In this document: piece by piece, positions 34,287-39,622 of the stretch
How positions within the stretch are numbered: position 1 is the first letter of the stretch
Layout: every line of letters starts with the position of its first letter
Notes under the pieces: model-generated
Seen by the model: only the letters and a program-made list of their open reading frames with translations
What the model was told of the DNA's origin: nothing
The model's database searches: none
Origin: Candidatus Vondammii sp. HM_W22
Lineage (GTDB): Bacteria > Pseudomonadota > Gammaproteobacteria > Chromatiales > Chromatiaceae
Length of the DNA stretch: 64,000 nucleotides
Assembly (NCBI RefSeq): GCF_022530855.2
Contig: NZ_CP099567.1
Location: forward strand, 434,001 to 498,000
Reading direction: 5' to 3'
Program-made: the position numbers and the translations under genes

Positions 34287-34994
34287 TCACCAAGTCCTGG
34301 CTACCGCCCAAACATCCACTTGCTTGGCGCCGGCCCGCTTAAACTCCCGCGCCAGCTCAGAGACCGTACTGCCTGTTGTCACCACATCATCGACCAGAAC
34401 AATATGGGTGTCCTGAAATCGGACGGTCACCTCAAAGGCACCTCGGATATTTCTCCTGCGCTCGCCTCTTTCAAGGTCTGATTGAGGCGCTGTGAGTTTT
34501 ACCCGCCGGCAGCAGGCGTAATTTAACGGGATATTAAGCCGGCGGCTGAGTGGCCTTGCCAGTTCCAGGGATTGATTGTATCCCCGCTGACGTAGGCGGG
34601 TGCTGTGCAACGGCACGGGAGTGATGAGTTCAGGCAGTCTGGACTGCTGCTGCAGGATAAAATTTCCCAGCAACGAGGAGAGCAGTCTGCCGATATGCAG
34701 TTTTCCATTGAATTTAAACCGGCTGATAAGCAGGTCGACTGGAGCAGCATAATGGAAGGGTGACAAGATGCGATTGTAAACCGGTGTTTGCTTTTGGCAT
34801 TGGCCACAGAGGGTTTGCCGATGATTGGCGGCTGTCAGTGGAAGAGCGCATTGCGGGCAGTGATTTCTGTTGTATGGGAGCTCGTGGTGACAATCTCGGC
34901 AGATAGTGTGCGCTTCTCCTGCTTTGGCACCACACAGCAGGCAGTCACTGGGGTATAGGGTAGATAGTATGGAATTAATACAATTGTTAACCAT
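34287..34994 (-). CDS. comF: ComF family phosphoribosyltransferase-like protein
   Basis: 235 residues. N-terminal zinc-ribbon with CLLCGAKAGEAH, CRDCHHELPY and CPQC plus CGQC cysteine pairs, then a PRT domain with PVPLHSTRLRQRGYNQSLELAR and the PRPP loop VLVDDVVTTGSTVSELAR. ComF/GntX proteins act in DNA uptake or nucleotide salvage of DNA ends; the biochemical role is not settled. ATG 34994 has AAAGGA upstream. Divergent from the biotin operon, an arrangement seen in many gammaproteobacteria; a BirA-like operator overlaps its first codon. Confidence 0.92.
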   Translation of the reverse strand: MVNNCINSILSTLYPSDCLLCGAKAGEAHTICRDCHHELPYNRNHCPQCALPLTAANHRQTLCGQCQKQTPVYNRILSPFHYAAPVDLLISRFKFNGKLHIGRLLSSLLGNFILQQQSRLPELITPVPLHSTRLRQRGYNQSLELARPLSRRLNIPLNYACCRRVKLTAPQSDLERGERRRNIRGAFEVTVRFQDTHIVLVDDVVTTGSTVSELAREFKRAGAKQVDVWAVARTW

Positions 34995-35016
34995 TGGATT
35001 CCTTTCCGGTTGACAG
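34984..35016 (+). promoter_or_regulatory. BirA-type biotin operator
   Basis: TTGTTAACC (34984-34992), exactly 15 bases, then GGTTGACAG (35008-35016). The known BirA operator consensus is TTGTAAACC-N15-GGTTTACAA; the match is 8 of 9 and 7 of 9 with the right spacing. It overlaps the comF start codon (34992-34994) and the -35 box of the candidate bioB promoter, so holo-BirA-biotinoyl-AMP binding would block both directions. birA itself is not in the window. Confidence 0.72.
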
Positions 35017-35037
35017 ATGATGAGCTTTCCTTACTAT
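35010..35037 (+). promoter_or_regulatory. Candidate sigma-70 promoter of the biotin operon
   Basis: TTGACA at 35010-35015 and TACTAT at 35032-35037, 16 bases apart, upstream of bioB. The -35 is a perfect consensus, the -10 matches four of six. Overlap with the BirA operator supports it. Confidence 0.5.
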
Positions 35038-35112
35038 TGGCACCCCATTATCCGTCATTCCTGTTAAGCACCACAAGGCATGACCGTTACGGCAATACAG
35101 GAACAAAAACGC

Positions 35113-36144
35113 ATGAACGACATCAGTTTACGGCACGACTGGGCGATAGAAGAGATTGAAGCCCTGCTGGATCTTCCATTCAATGATCTGATGTTCCGCG
35201 CGCAGTCGGTTCACAGATCGCATTTTGATCCCAATAAGGTACAGGTCAGCACGCTGTTGAGTATCAAAACCGGTGCCTGTTCAGAGGATTGTGGCTACTG
35301 TTCCCAGAGCGCCAAATATAATACGGACCTGGAGAAGGAGAAGCTGTTGCCGGTGGAAGAGGTGATCAAGGCGGCTGAGGCAGCCAAGGATAAGGGGGCG
35401 ACCCGCTTCTGCATGGGCGCGGCCTGGCGTAACCCCACGGACAAGAATCTGCAGCGCGTGATTGAGATGATTCAAGCGGTGCATGACCTGGGAATGCAGA
35501 CCTGCGTCACCCTAGGCATGTTGACCGGGGATCAGGCAAAAAGTCTAAAAGATGCCGGGCTGGATTACTACAATCACAATCTGGACACTTCACCGGAATT
35601 TTACGGCAATGTGGTTACTACCCGTACCTTCAAAGATCGACTGGATACGCTGAAAAGCGTACGTGAACAGGGCATCAACGTGTGCAGCGGCGGTATTCTC
35701 GGCATGGGTGAATCCCGCCGGGATCGTGCTTCCATGCTGCGTGAATTGGTTAATCTGCCAAAACATCCGGAGTCGGTGCCGATTAACATGCTGGTTCAGG
35801 TAGAGGGCACCCCCCTGTACGGTGCCGATGAGATCGACAGCCTGGAGTTTGTCCGCACGATTGCAGTGGCACGAATCCTGATGCCGCTCTCCTACGTTCG
35901 ACTCTCTGCCGGTCGCACAGAGATGAACGATGAAACCCAGGCTCTCTGCTTTATGGCTGGTGCCAACTCCATGTTCTATGGTGACAGACTGCTGACCACC
36001 GATAACCCGGATGCAGATGCCGATATCAAACTGTTCAGACGTCTCGGTCTCAAATTCGAAGAGAGCGTGGAACTCCAGGCCACCGAGGCACAGTGCGAAA
36101 ACAGGAAAAAGGCCAAGGATTTCAGTGAAACCGCTTCAGCCTGA
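35113..36144 (+). CDS. bioB: Biotin synthase
   Basis: Radical SAM enzyme that inserts sulfur into dethiobiotin, last step of biotin synthesis. About 343 residues from ATG 35113, which has AGGA at good spacing; an in-frame ATG at 35080 has no usable site. The [4Fe-4S] cysteines are CxxxCxxC in [13 protein letters not shown] (residues 56, 60 and 63). Other conserved blocks: [51 protein letters not shown] and [21 protein letters not shown]. First gene of bioBFHCD; its end overlaps the bioF start by 20 bases. Confidence 0.97.
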
Positions 36145-37288
36145 ACTGAACCGACGCCGCAAGGAACATCTCTACCGTTCCCGTAGAGTCTCAGAAGGAC
36201 CCCAGGGCCCTGAGTTGAAGATGGATGGGCACCCATTGCTCAGCTTCTGCAGTAATGATTACCTGGGCCTAGCCAATCATCCTGATGTGGTGGCAGCTAT
36301 GCAGCGGGGTACGGAAATCTACGGTGTCGGGAGCGGGTCGGCTCATCTGGTGAATGGCCACAGCCAGGCTCATCATGCCCTAGAGGAAGAGCTGGCAGCG
36401 TTCACGGGCCGTCCAAGGGCGTTGCTGTTTTCCACAGGCTACATGGCCAATCAAGGTGTTATCGCTGCACTTGCCGGTCGGAATGACACCCTCTATCAGG
36501 ATCGGCTCAATCACGCATCGCTGATCGATGGCGGCCTCCTGTCACGGGCGCGCATGAAGCGTTTTGCTCATGGTGATACCGCGGCGCTTCAGGCGCAGAT
36601 GGCAAGCCAGGAGCGAGGTGAGGCGCTGGTGGCCGTTGATGGGGTCTTCAGTATGGATGGCGATCTTGCGCCACTGCGGTCACTTGCCGCTCTTTGTCGT
36701 GGGCGCGGCGCCTGGCTGCTGGTGGATGATGCCCACGGCTTGGGAGTTCTGGGTTCCGAGGGACGGGGTTCGACGGATCACTTTGGCCTCGGTCTGGATG
36801 ATGTCCCTATCCTGATGGGCGCATTAGGTAAGGCATTTGGCACCTTTGGAGCGTTTGTCGCCGGTTCTGATGAGCTGATAGAGACACTGATTCAACAGGC
36901 CCGCAGTTATATTTTTACCACGGCACTGCCACCCGCTGTCGCCGAGGCGGCCCGTGCCAGCTTGCGACTGGTTCGCAGTGAAGAGTGGCGGCGTGAGCAT
37001 CTGCGGGAGCTGGTGAAAAAATTCCGTAGCGGAGCAGAGCAACTGGGTCTGTCGCTGATGCTGTCAGAGACGCCGATTCAGCCTATTGTTGCAGGTTCAT
37101 CGGTACAGGCACTCTCCTGGAGCCGCACTTTGGAAGCCCAGGGCATTCTGGTCAGTGCCATTCGTCCTCCCACCGTGCCTGAGGGGGGTGCGCGATTGCG
37201 GGTCACCCTCTCGGCCAACCACTCTTTTCAACATCTTGACCGGCTGCTGACCGCGCTGGAACAGCTGAAGATCCAAGAGGTTCCATGA
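36125..37288 (+). CDS. bioF: 8-amino-7-oxononanoate synthase
   Basis: PLP enzyme joining pimeloyl-ACP and alanine. I choose the GTG at 36125 (AAGGA five bases upstream), giving 387 residues, the usual BioF length; the frame stays open back to 36011 but that part only reads through bioB. Markers: [52 protein letters not shown], and the cofactor lysine in [13 protein letters not shown]. Stop overlaps the bioH ATG by four bases (ATGA). Intact. Confidence 0.96.
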
Positions 37289-38061
37289 AGCTGTATGCAG
37301 AATCAACCGGCAGCGGTCCCGATCTGGTGTTGCTTCACGGCTGGGGTATGAATAGTGCCGTCTGGTCATCTGTACGAAAACAGCTTGCAGCACACTTCAG
37401 GATCACCCTGATTGAGCTGCCGGGACACGGTGGCAGTGAGTATGAAGCTGATGCATCCTCGCTCGATGACTGGGCCAATGCCTGCCTGCAAGCCGCACCG
37501 GAGAGATCTGCCTGGATAGGCTGGTCCCTGGGTGGTCATCTGGCGTTGCAGGCTGCTTTAGTGGCACCGGAGCGGATTGAAAAGCTGGTGTTGGTCAGCG
37601 GTAGTCCGCGTTTTGTCGAGGGGGCGGATTGGCCTCATGCCATGTCGCTAAACACCCTGACACAGTTTGCCAAGACCCTGGCAAAAAATCATAAACAGAC
37701 ACTGGCGCGGTTTTTTTCGCTTCAGGTGAGAGGGGATGAGGATGCGAGGCAGACGCTGCGTCTATTGCGTCAGAATATTGCCGGCCGATCCGATCACAAC
37801 GACCTGGCCCTGGAGCATGGGCTCAATCTGCTGTTGACCGTAGACCTGAGGGATCAGCTGCAGCAGTTGAACTGCCCCACGCTCTGGTTGCTTGGCGAAC
37901 GGGATACCCTGGTGCCGGTGGAGGTGGCTCATGCTTTGGGGTCGCTTATGCCGGAAGCAGAAATTCTGACTCTAAGCGGCTCTGCCCATGCCCCGTTTCT
38001 CTCTCACCCCAAGCGGTGCCTGGAAGCATTGATTCATTTTCTGGAAGATGCAGATGAGTGA
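37285..38061 (+). CDS. bioH: Pimeloyl-ACP methyl ester carboxylesterase
   Basis: 258-residue alpha/beta hydrolase that removes the methyl group from pimeloyl-ACP methyl ester, ending the BioC-started route. Nucleophile Ser81 in GWSLGG, acid Asp in GERDTLVP, base His in SAHAPFLSHP, and the HGWGMNSAVW oxyanion region near the start. Overlaps bioF by four bases and bioC by a few, so the operon is tightly coupled. Confidence 0.95.
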   Translation: MKLYAESTGSGPDLVLLHGWGMNSAVWSSVRKQLAAHFRITLIELPGHGGSEYEADASSLDDWANACLQAAPERSAWIGWSLGGHLALQAALVAPERIEKLVLVSGSPRFVEGADWPHAMSLNTLTQFAKTLAKNHKQTLARFFSLQVRGDEDARQTLRLLRQNIAGRSDHNDLALEHGLNLLLTVDLRDQLQQLNCPTLWLLGERDTLVPVEVAHALGSLMPEAEILTLSGSAHAPFLSHPKRCLEALIHFLEDADE

Positions 38062-38914
38062 CCCGTTGCACCGCATCGACAAGCAGCAGGCGCGCCGCGC
38101 CTTCTCCCGTGCCGCCGAACGTTACGATGAAGTGGCGATGCTGCAACGGGAGATAGGTCAGCGCATGATCGAGCGGCTGGAGGTTGTCAAACTGCAGCCA
38201 GGGGTGATTCTGGATATTGGTTCAGGTACTGGCGTTGCCACTGCCGAGCTCTCCCGCCGATATAAAAAGTCGCAGATGATTGCCCTGGATTTTGCCCTGC
38301 CGATGCTGCAGCAGACCCGTAAGCGCAGCTCCTGGCTGCGGCGGCCTCGCTGTGTCTGCGCTGACCTGGAGCAGTTGCCGCTGGCAGATCAGAGTGTTGA
38401 TCTTATTTATTCCAATGCGGCCATTCAGTGGTGCAATGATCTGGACAGCACGTTTCAGGAGTTCCTGCGGGTGTTGAAGCTCGGCGGCTTGCTGATGTTC
38501 AGCACCTTTGGTCCCGATACGCTTAAAGAGCTGCGCTCTGCCTGGTCGGACGCCGATGGGCGCACCCATGTTAGTACATTCATCGACATGCACGATGTGG
38601 GCGATGCCCTGATGCGGGCGGGCTTTTCCGACCCGGTGATGGATGTGGACCGAATGACCCTGACGTATCAAGAGGTCTCCGGGGTGATGCGCGACCTGAA
38701 AGTGCTCGGCGCCCACAATGTCACCAGTAACCGCCAGCGGGGACTGACCGGCAAGGGCAAATTCAAGGCAATGCAGGCAGCTTACGAAAAATTCCGCAGT
38801 GATGGTCTTCTTCCTGCCAGCTACGAAGTGGTCTACGGCCACGCTTGGGCACCATTACAGCGGGAGCAGGATGGCGTGGTAACGGTGCCGCTCAGCCAGA
38901 TTAGCCGGGTTTGA
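38054..38914 (+). CDS. bioC: Malonyl-ACP O-methyltransferase
   Basis: SAM-dependent methyltransferase that methylates malonyl-ACP to start pimelate assembly on the fatty acid machinery. About 286 residues from ATG 38054 (GGAAG upstream, inside the bioH end); an ATG at 38048 is also possible. Class I motifs: DIGSGTGVATAELS (motif I), VCADLEQLPLADQSVDLIYSNAAIQW (motifs II-III), and LMFSTFGPDTLKELRSAW, which is characteristic of BioC. The RRAFSRAAERYDEVA start is typical too. Intact. Confidence 0.95.
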   Translation: MSDPLHRIDKQQARRAFSRAAERYDEVAMLQREIGQRMIERLEVVKLQPGVILDIGSGTGVATAELSRRYKKSQMIALDFALPMLQQTRKRSSWLRRPRCVCADLEQLPLADQSVDLIYSNAAIQWCNDLDSTFQEFLRVLKLGGLLMFSTFGPDTLKELRSAWSDADGRTHVSTFIDMHDVGDALMRAGFSDPVMDVDRMTLTYQEVSGVMRDLKVLGAHNVTSNRQRGLTGKGKFKAMQAAYEKFRSDGLLPASYEVVYGHAWAPLQREQDGVVTVPLSQISRV

Positions 38915-38950: not shown

Positions 38951-39622
38951 ATGCCCAAAGGCTATTTCATCACCGGAACAGACACTGATTGCGGCAAAAC
39001 CGAAATCACCCTGGGCCTGATGCATCTGCTCCAGTCTCAGGGGCACTCGGTGCTGGGAATGAAGCCTGTGGCGTCAGGAGCTGTGCCGTCCCAGGCCGGT
39101 TTGCGTAATGAAGATGCACAGCGCATCCGGCAGCAGGGGTCCCATCAAGTTGATTATCAGCGGATAAATCCCTTCGCCCATGAACCGCCTATTGCACCTC
39201 ATCTGGCGGCAGAGCAGGCAGGGATGAGTATTGATTTTGACCGCATCAGCAGTTGCTATAAGGGTCTGGCAGCTGAAGCTGATATGGTTCTGGTTGAGGG
39301 TGTTGGCGGCTGGAGGGTGCCTTTGGGTCCAGAACGGGATCTCTCAGATCTGGCTGTGAAATTGGCTCTGCCAGTGATTCTGGTTGTCGGCCTGAAACTG
39401 GGCTGTATCAATCACGCGCTGCTGAGTGCGGAGTCGATACTCTCATCCGATGTAAAACTGGCCGGCTGGGTTGCCAACGTAGTAGACCCCTGGATGCTGG
39501 AGCCGGAGGCCAACCTGGAGAGTTTGAAGCAGCGTTTACAGATTCCCTTTCTGGGATTGGTGCCGCGCACGACTCGACCCACCCCGGAGGCGGTAGCTGC
39601 TTGTCTGACACTCAAGAACTAG
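38951..39622 (+). CDS. bioD: Dethiobiotin synthetase
   Basis: ATP-dependent ring closure of 7,8-diaminopelargonic acid with CO2. 223 residues. P-loop GTDTDCGKT at 9-17, KPVASGA substrate loop, and VEGVGGWRVPL. AAAGG precedes the ATG by ten bases. Last gene of the operon; the aminotransferase BioA (or BioK) needed for the step between BioF and BioD is absent here and must be elsewhere. A long palindrome begins immediately after the TAG. Confidence 0.95.
   Translation: MPKGYFITGTDTDCGKTEITLGLMHLLQSQGHSVLGMKPVASGAVPSQAGLRNEDAQRIRQQGSHQVDYQRINPFAHEPPIAPHLAAEQAGMSIDFDRISSCYKGLAAEADMVLVEGVGGWRVPLGPERDLSDLAVKLALPVILVVGLKLGCINHALLSAESILSSDVKLAGWVANVVDPWMLEPEANLESLKQRLQIPFLGLVPRTTRPTPEAVAACLTLKN

Follow-up and report, generated by a model that had tools for sequence, protein, structure and literature searches.

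A predicted BirA operator upstream of bioBFHCD overlaps the start of the divergent comF gene

The bifunctional biotin ligase and repressor BirA of E. coli dimerises with bound biotinyl-5'-AMP and binds its operator, and unmodified (apo) acceptor protein drains the adenylate and so frees the operator (PMC5438404). The published BirA consensus is TTGTAAACC-[N14/15]-GGTTTACAA, its delta-proteobacterial variants include TTGTtAACC and GGTTgACAg, and one predicted site lies at +6 of bioB (PMC545781). A BirA operator before bioB is in itself already known biology (PMC5343134). In Pseudomonas, bioA is scattered and is said to be exempt from BirA control (PMC9894557), and in E. coli and its relatives a comF-type gene, yhgH, stands beside bioH (PMC5438404).

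Here we describe a predicted BirA operator between comF and bioB in the window, by which we mean the whole 64,000-nucleotide stretch of the Candidatus Vondammii sp. HM_W22 genome that was analysed. At 34984-35016 the sequence reads TTGTTAACC-N15-GGTTGACAG and matches the consensus TTGTAAACC-N15-GGTTTACAA at 15 of 18 positions, and its three departures are of the same kind as the variants given in PMC545781; rereading the sequence and scanning it with the consensus returned the motif, coordinates, spacing and score of the preliminary description. As a control, the same scan recovered bioO between bioA and bioB of E. coli (NC_000913.3) as TTGTAAACC-N16-GGTTTACAA, at 18/18. The two operators are alike in the type of their half-sites and in their position between divergent genes, whereas bioO is a perfect palindrome with a 16-base spacer and its left half stays clear of bioA, starting 8 bases outside the start codon of that gene, in contrast to the half-site of the window, which lies inside comF. 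In the window comF thus occupies the place that bioA has in E. coli, and the genome's own bioA lies elsewhere. Control of this bioA by the same motif was rejected, as no site of at least 11/18 was found in the stretch scanned around its start (positions 1001-1700 of locus L204), in agreement with what PMC9894557 says of Pseudomonas bioA. The order of the biotin genes is that of Pseudomonas bioBFHCD, for which the accessible part of PMC9894557 describes no overlap with comF, unlike the window; nor is such an overlap mentioned for the delta- and gamma-proteobacterial sites in the accessible parts of PMC545781 and PMC5343134. At bioH-yhgH of E. coli a comF-type gene also diverges from a biotin gene (PMC5438404), but the 120 bases scanned there held no site above 12/18. 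We found no account of an operator overlapping the comF coding sequence in the literature searched, a scope that left out subscription journals and RegPrecise.

The five biotin genes all lie 3' of the operator on the forward strand, with comF divergent from them (Table 1). The comF product carries the double zinc ribbon (PF18912) and the phosphoribosyltransferase domain (PF00156) that together define the ComF/GntX family, and its matches to the NCBIfam GntX and comF models (TIGR00201, NF008616) fall below their cut-offs. From the stop upstream to the cysteines of the zinc ribbon, no in-frame ATG, GTG or TTG occurs other than its ATG at 34994. The bioB start is probably at 35113 rather than 35080, because the closest relatives match from residue 12.

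Table 1. Features of the comF-bioBFHCD region, in positions of the window
Feature	Position	Strand	Evidence
comF (ComF/GntX-type: double zinc ribbon and phosphoribosyltransferase), 235 aa, start MVNNC	34287..34994	-	Pfam DZR_2 (PF18912) and Pribosyltran (PF00156) over cut-off
Left half-site of predicted BirA operator, TTGTTAACC	34984..34992	+	read from sequence, consensus scan
Operator spacer, 15 bases	34993..35007	+	read from sequence
Right half-site, GGTTGACAG, encloses predicted bioB -35 hexamer	35008..35016	+	read from sequence, consensus and promoter scans
Predicted bioB promoter: -35 TTGACA 35010-35015, 16-base spacer, -10 TACTAT 35032-35037	35010..35037	+	consensus scan, 10/12
bioB, biotin synthase	35080..36144 (ORF)	+	TIGR00433 over cut-off
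bioF open frame (stretch tested 36140-37285)	36011..37288	+	TIGR00858 over cut-off
bioH	37285..38061	+	TIGR01738 over cut-off
bioC	38048..38914	+	TIGR02072 over cut-off
bioD	38951..39622	+	TIGR00347 over cut-off

Read on the reverse strand, the left half-site is nucleotides +3 to +11 of comF (the G of ATG, then GTT, AAC and AA), and so runs from the last base of the start codon across codons 2 and 3 to the second base of codon 4. The spacer opens with the other two letters of the ATG, A and T, and also contains the likely comF Shine-Dalgarno sequence, AAGGA (reverse strand, 35000-35004). The preliminary description had the operator covering the first codon of comF; the overlap with the comF start is real, but the half-site itself takes in only the G. 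It had also placed the operator over the -35 box of a candidate bioB promoter, and the right half-site does enclose the TTGACA of the sole promoter-like site in 34900-35200 (301 bases). Since shuffles of this 301-base stretch are expected to yield 0.5 such promoters, the bioB promoter is no more than a prediction.

A birA gene with an N-terminal helix-turn-helix (HTH), which the preliminary description had asked to be sought, is present in the genome by Pfam, by NCBIfam and by alignment. It encodes a 326-aa protein with HTH_11 (PF08279), BPL (PF03099) and BPL_C (PF02237) domains, all over cut-off, and the N-terminal HTH fused to the catalytic and C-terminal ligase domains makes it a Group II biotin protein ligase. 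The protein exceeds the cut-offs of the BirA equivalog models NF008848 and NF008847, and its alignment with E. coli BirA (4wf2, 1bia) starts at residue 6 and thereby takes in the HTH. Its score against TIGR00122 is 54 bits for a cut-off of 70, a model that likewise gives no over-cut-off match in 171 of 184 sample genomes. The locus therefore combines the features of an operator of the bioO type, namely inverted half-sites, a spacer of 14-16 bases, a position at the promoter of a biotin gene and an HTH-bearing BirA in the same genome.

Conservation was assessed in 184 genomes drawn evenly from the class, each scored for ligase and HTH, with bioB upstream regions taken from the best 120 of the 166 genomes that had a match (the window's own left out), and in a named set of the best 80 bioB relatives among the matches listed. 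A site scoring 13/18 or better was found no more than 350 bp upstream of bioB in 42 of the 71 genomes whose BirA carries the HTH (HTH-positive, although in G096 and G032 it was not evident from the matches that HTH and ligase share one place) and in none of 21 genomes whose BirA lacks it (HTH-negative, including G140 and G064, where the ligase alignment starts at residues 36 and 40, inside the HTH). The same scan gave 0/7 for genomes with an aligned ligase N-terminus but no match to the HTH model, 1/15 for those with a weak ligase hit and 1/6 for those with no ligase hit (2/28 for these genomes of unclear status together), and letter-shuffled HTH-positive upstream stretches gave 4/355. By Fisher's test, presence of the operator differs with a probability of 3e-7 between HTH-positive and HTH-negative genomes and of 1e-10 between HTH-positive genomes and all 49 others, where loci within orders are not independent. 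When the range was widened to 900 bp, at least 14/18 was reached in 37/71 HTH-positive genomes against 1/49 of the others, and at 13/18 or better 4 of those 49 also score. In the named set, where again loci within orders are not independent, 58 of the best 80 listed reach 13/18 or better somewhere in the 400 bp upstream of bioB; G166 and L017 share their sequence, as do L058 and L059, and G039 and L024 may be one record.

The spacing is conserved as well. Among the HTH-positive genomes that reach 14/18 or better within 900 bp, the spacer is N14, N15 and N16 in 6, 18 and 15 cases, and the remaining spacers in the range tested (N8-N24) yielded one site at N23 and two at N24. In Sedimenticola-like and Methylococcales alignments the two half-sites and the CAT form a conserved island of the intergenic region, and in the named relatives TTGACA has conserved neighbours, GG and A/G. 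Conservation is incomplete: 29 of the 71 HTH-positive genomes lack a site reaching 13/18 within 350 bp; 15 of them gain one within 900 bp and 14 do not, and several of these 15 farther sites lie beside comF where a further gene separates it from bioB. The three Ectothiorhodospira loci (L018, L022, L041) score no higher than 11/18 within 400 bp of bioB and have no site at comF. Of the genomes with no ligase hit, G145 carries a site of 16/18 and G019 shows the comF overlap; perhaps the ligase is missing from both through incomplete assembly. The comparison of comF-bioB regions that the preliminary description had called for thus finds half-sites and spacing conserved and tracking an HTH-bearing BirA. 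Two outcomes named beforehand as refuting the proposal, a genome with no HTH-bearing BirA and half-sites that are not conserved in relatives, were both checked for and neither was found.

Two further arrangements were seen in these surveys. A family of small hydrophobic proteins of ∼140-155 aa, with the signature NRHHPNxKVGHYTQxAAYRFYGxxG, has its gene immediately before bioB in 34 of the 241 stretches searched, which include more than one from some genomes, and is absent from the window; in L084, L085, L091, L097, L111, L113, L116, L133 and others it lies between comF and bioB. Pfam gave nothing over cut-off for two members, and NCBIfam gave no match for one. Because a BirA site precedes it in several HTH-positive genomes, this family may be a new gene of the biotin operon. 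Separately, in L207-L219 (genomes G179, G065, G057, G176, G070, G181, G111, G154, G171, G033 and G019) comF is divergent from a gene ∼34-37% identical to bioB of the window, and several of these loci keep a BirA-like site at comF.

By chance such a match would be rare in the window, at 0.02 on average per shuffled window in 100 dinucleotide shuffles. Across the whole genome of 3.35 Mb there is one N15 site with no more than three mismatches, and a reversed control pattern likewise gave one; at N16 the scan returned one unrelated site and at N14 none. The motif alone is therefore not significant genome-wide, and it is the position before bioB together with the conservation that carries the weight. 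A chance match was rejected on the window shuffles, the class-wide HTH comparison and the preference in spacer length. A perfect TTGTAAACC also occurs inside comF at 34774-34782 with no matching partner half, and is probably due to chance. Taking this evidence together, we consider it very probable that 34984-35016 is the operator through which BirA controls bioBFHCD. By analogy with E. coli, when biotin is plentiful BirA and biotinyl-5'-AMP would dimerise on the site, cover the bioB -35 and shut off bioBFHCD, and unmodified acceptor protein would drain the adenylate, freeing the operator.

The overlap with comF was surveyed at 201 loci (120 from the class, 80 named and the window), 157 of which have a divergent comF. 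The left half-site coincides exactly with comF nucleotides +3 to +11 (an offset of -10 to the start codon) in 64 of these 157, made up of 22/59 loci in HTH-positive genomes, 40/73 named loci, the window and 1/4 from genomes without a ligase hit. In the other groups, the 11 loci with comF from HTH-negative genomes, 4 of unclear status and 5 with a weak ligase hit, none had a site of even 12/18 at comF. One comF frame is shared by 57 of 62 comF-overlapping sites in HTH-positive genomes, so that where comF starts have moved, codons must have been gained or lost in threes.

The bound dimer would sit on the ribosome-binding site and start codon of comF, downstream of any promoter further upstream, and for this reason we propose that it would also lower comF transcription as a roadblock to RNA polymerase. 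We regard such repression of comF as plausible, with about an even chance of being correct. The chief competing explanation is that the predicted operator serves bioB only and overlaps comF as a by-product of gene crowding, with comF expression unchanged, and to this we give a chance only just short of even. The overlap is not universal, since of the 48 HTH-positive loci that score 13/18 or better near comF, 8 have their site at the comF start or upstream of it (these starts being predicted), and where an extra gene separates comF from bioB the operator is simply found at the divergent promoters. The consensus scan predicted no promoter on the comF strand in 34900-35200, and ComF is not known to need biotin control. 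Against a role confined to bioB stand the register, which is held over many families, and the likelihood that a protein bound over a ribosome-binding site and start codon hinders polymerase.

A different and very improbable explanation is coincidence, in which comF codons (MVYNW or MVNNW) happen to make the left half and a -35 hexamer the right. The left half is indeed comF coding sequence, through which ComF begins with a V-[YN]-[NK]-like peptide, and the right half does contain TTGACA. However, when searched for as [VIL][YNDH][NKSRDEHQ][WCRSA], the peptide is carried by 44 of the 79 comF genes that adjoin bioB in HTH-positive genomes, compared with 3/25 adjacent ones in other genomes (Fisher, 1.5e-4) and 2/18 HTH-positive comF genes with no bioB nearby (6e-4), the 18 being a chosen subset rather than every such genome. 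Two of the three carriers in other genomes are G145 and G019, which have the operator but no ligase hit, and the comF genes of G031 and G012, 1.5 and 3.4 kb from bioB, were not counted as adjacent. The 2/18 are G151, at a contig end, and G094 (L225), whose comF starts MVYKW with the left half intact and the right half poor, while bioB and a 16/18 site lie on another contig; this is perhaps a relic of a separated comF-bioB pair or an assembly break. In G059, also without bioB near comF, a 14/18 site is in register with an Ala codon replacing Val.

Codon usage points the same way as the peptide distribution. Codon 3 was examined in genes chosen by their protein peptide only, with any match lying ahead of the expected comF start left out, and its wobble base is C in 102/102, as against ∼40-45% elsewhere in the same genes. 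By set, C occurs in 47/47 from HTH-positive class genomes (46/46 without G019), 1/1 and 54/54 (named loci and the window), where later Tyr, Asn, Asp and His codons of the same genes have a C share of 44.5%, 62% and 39.6%, respectively; the bias has p values of 3e-17 for the 47/47 and 2e-22 for the 54/54, ignoring kinship. At Val codon 2 the wobble base, a position that is variable in operators, can be T, A, G or C. The wobble base of codon 4, just outside the nine-base half-site, is C in 71/80 (T in the window, in AAT at about 34983-34985), so that part of the codon 3 bias may have another cause, but codon 3 is the more extreme (101/101 vs 71/80, Fisher 5e-4). The constant C of codon 3 indicates that the operator is kept at the DNA level inside comF. 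On the peptide distribution and the codon 3 wobble we rejected comF codons and a -35 hexamer as sufficient explanation, and the conserved flanks of TTGACA and the preference for spacers of 14-16 bases also speak against it. Finally, that the palindrome belongs to a different regulator of the biotin genes or comF is highly unlikely given the fit to the published consensus and its variants (PMC545781) and the dependence of the site on the BirA HTH.

The site in comF is thus doubly used, kept as DNA for BirA and fixing residues 2-4 of ComF. More broadly, we tentatively suggest, at somewhat less than an even chance, that in much of the Gammaproteobacteria one BirA operator silences both the biotin genes and the divergent comF, the latter by a roadblock at its start codon, and that selection on the operator wrote V-[YN]-[NK]-[WC] onto ComF, a sequence mostly gone from genomes with an HTH-less BirA and from comF genes that have moved away. 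The predicted operator is in itself an ordinary one for BirA, but across many families its half-site has been taken up into the adjacent gene. On a practical level, the MV[YN][NK]W with which ComF begins should not be taken for a functional motif. An operator that doubles as the start of a coding gene, with the register fixed over many families, offers a clear example from nature of how regulatory DNA can shape a protein sequence, and the overlap makes a testable link between the supply of a vitamin and comF, a gene of DNA use.
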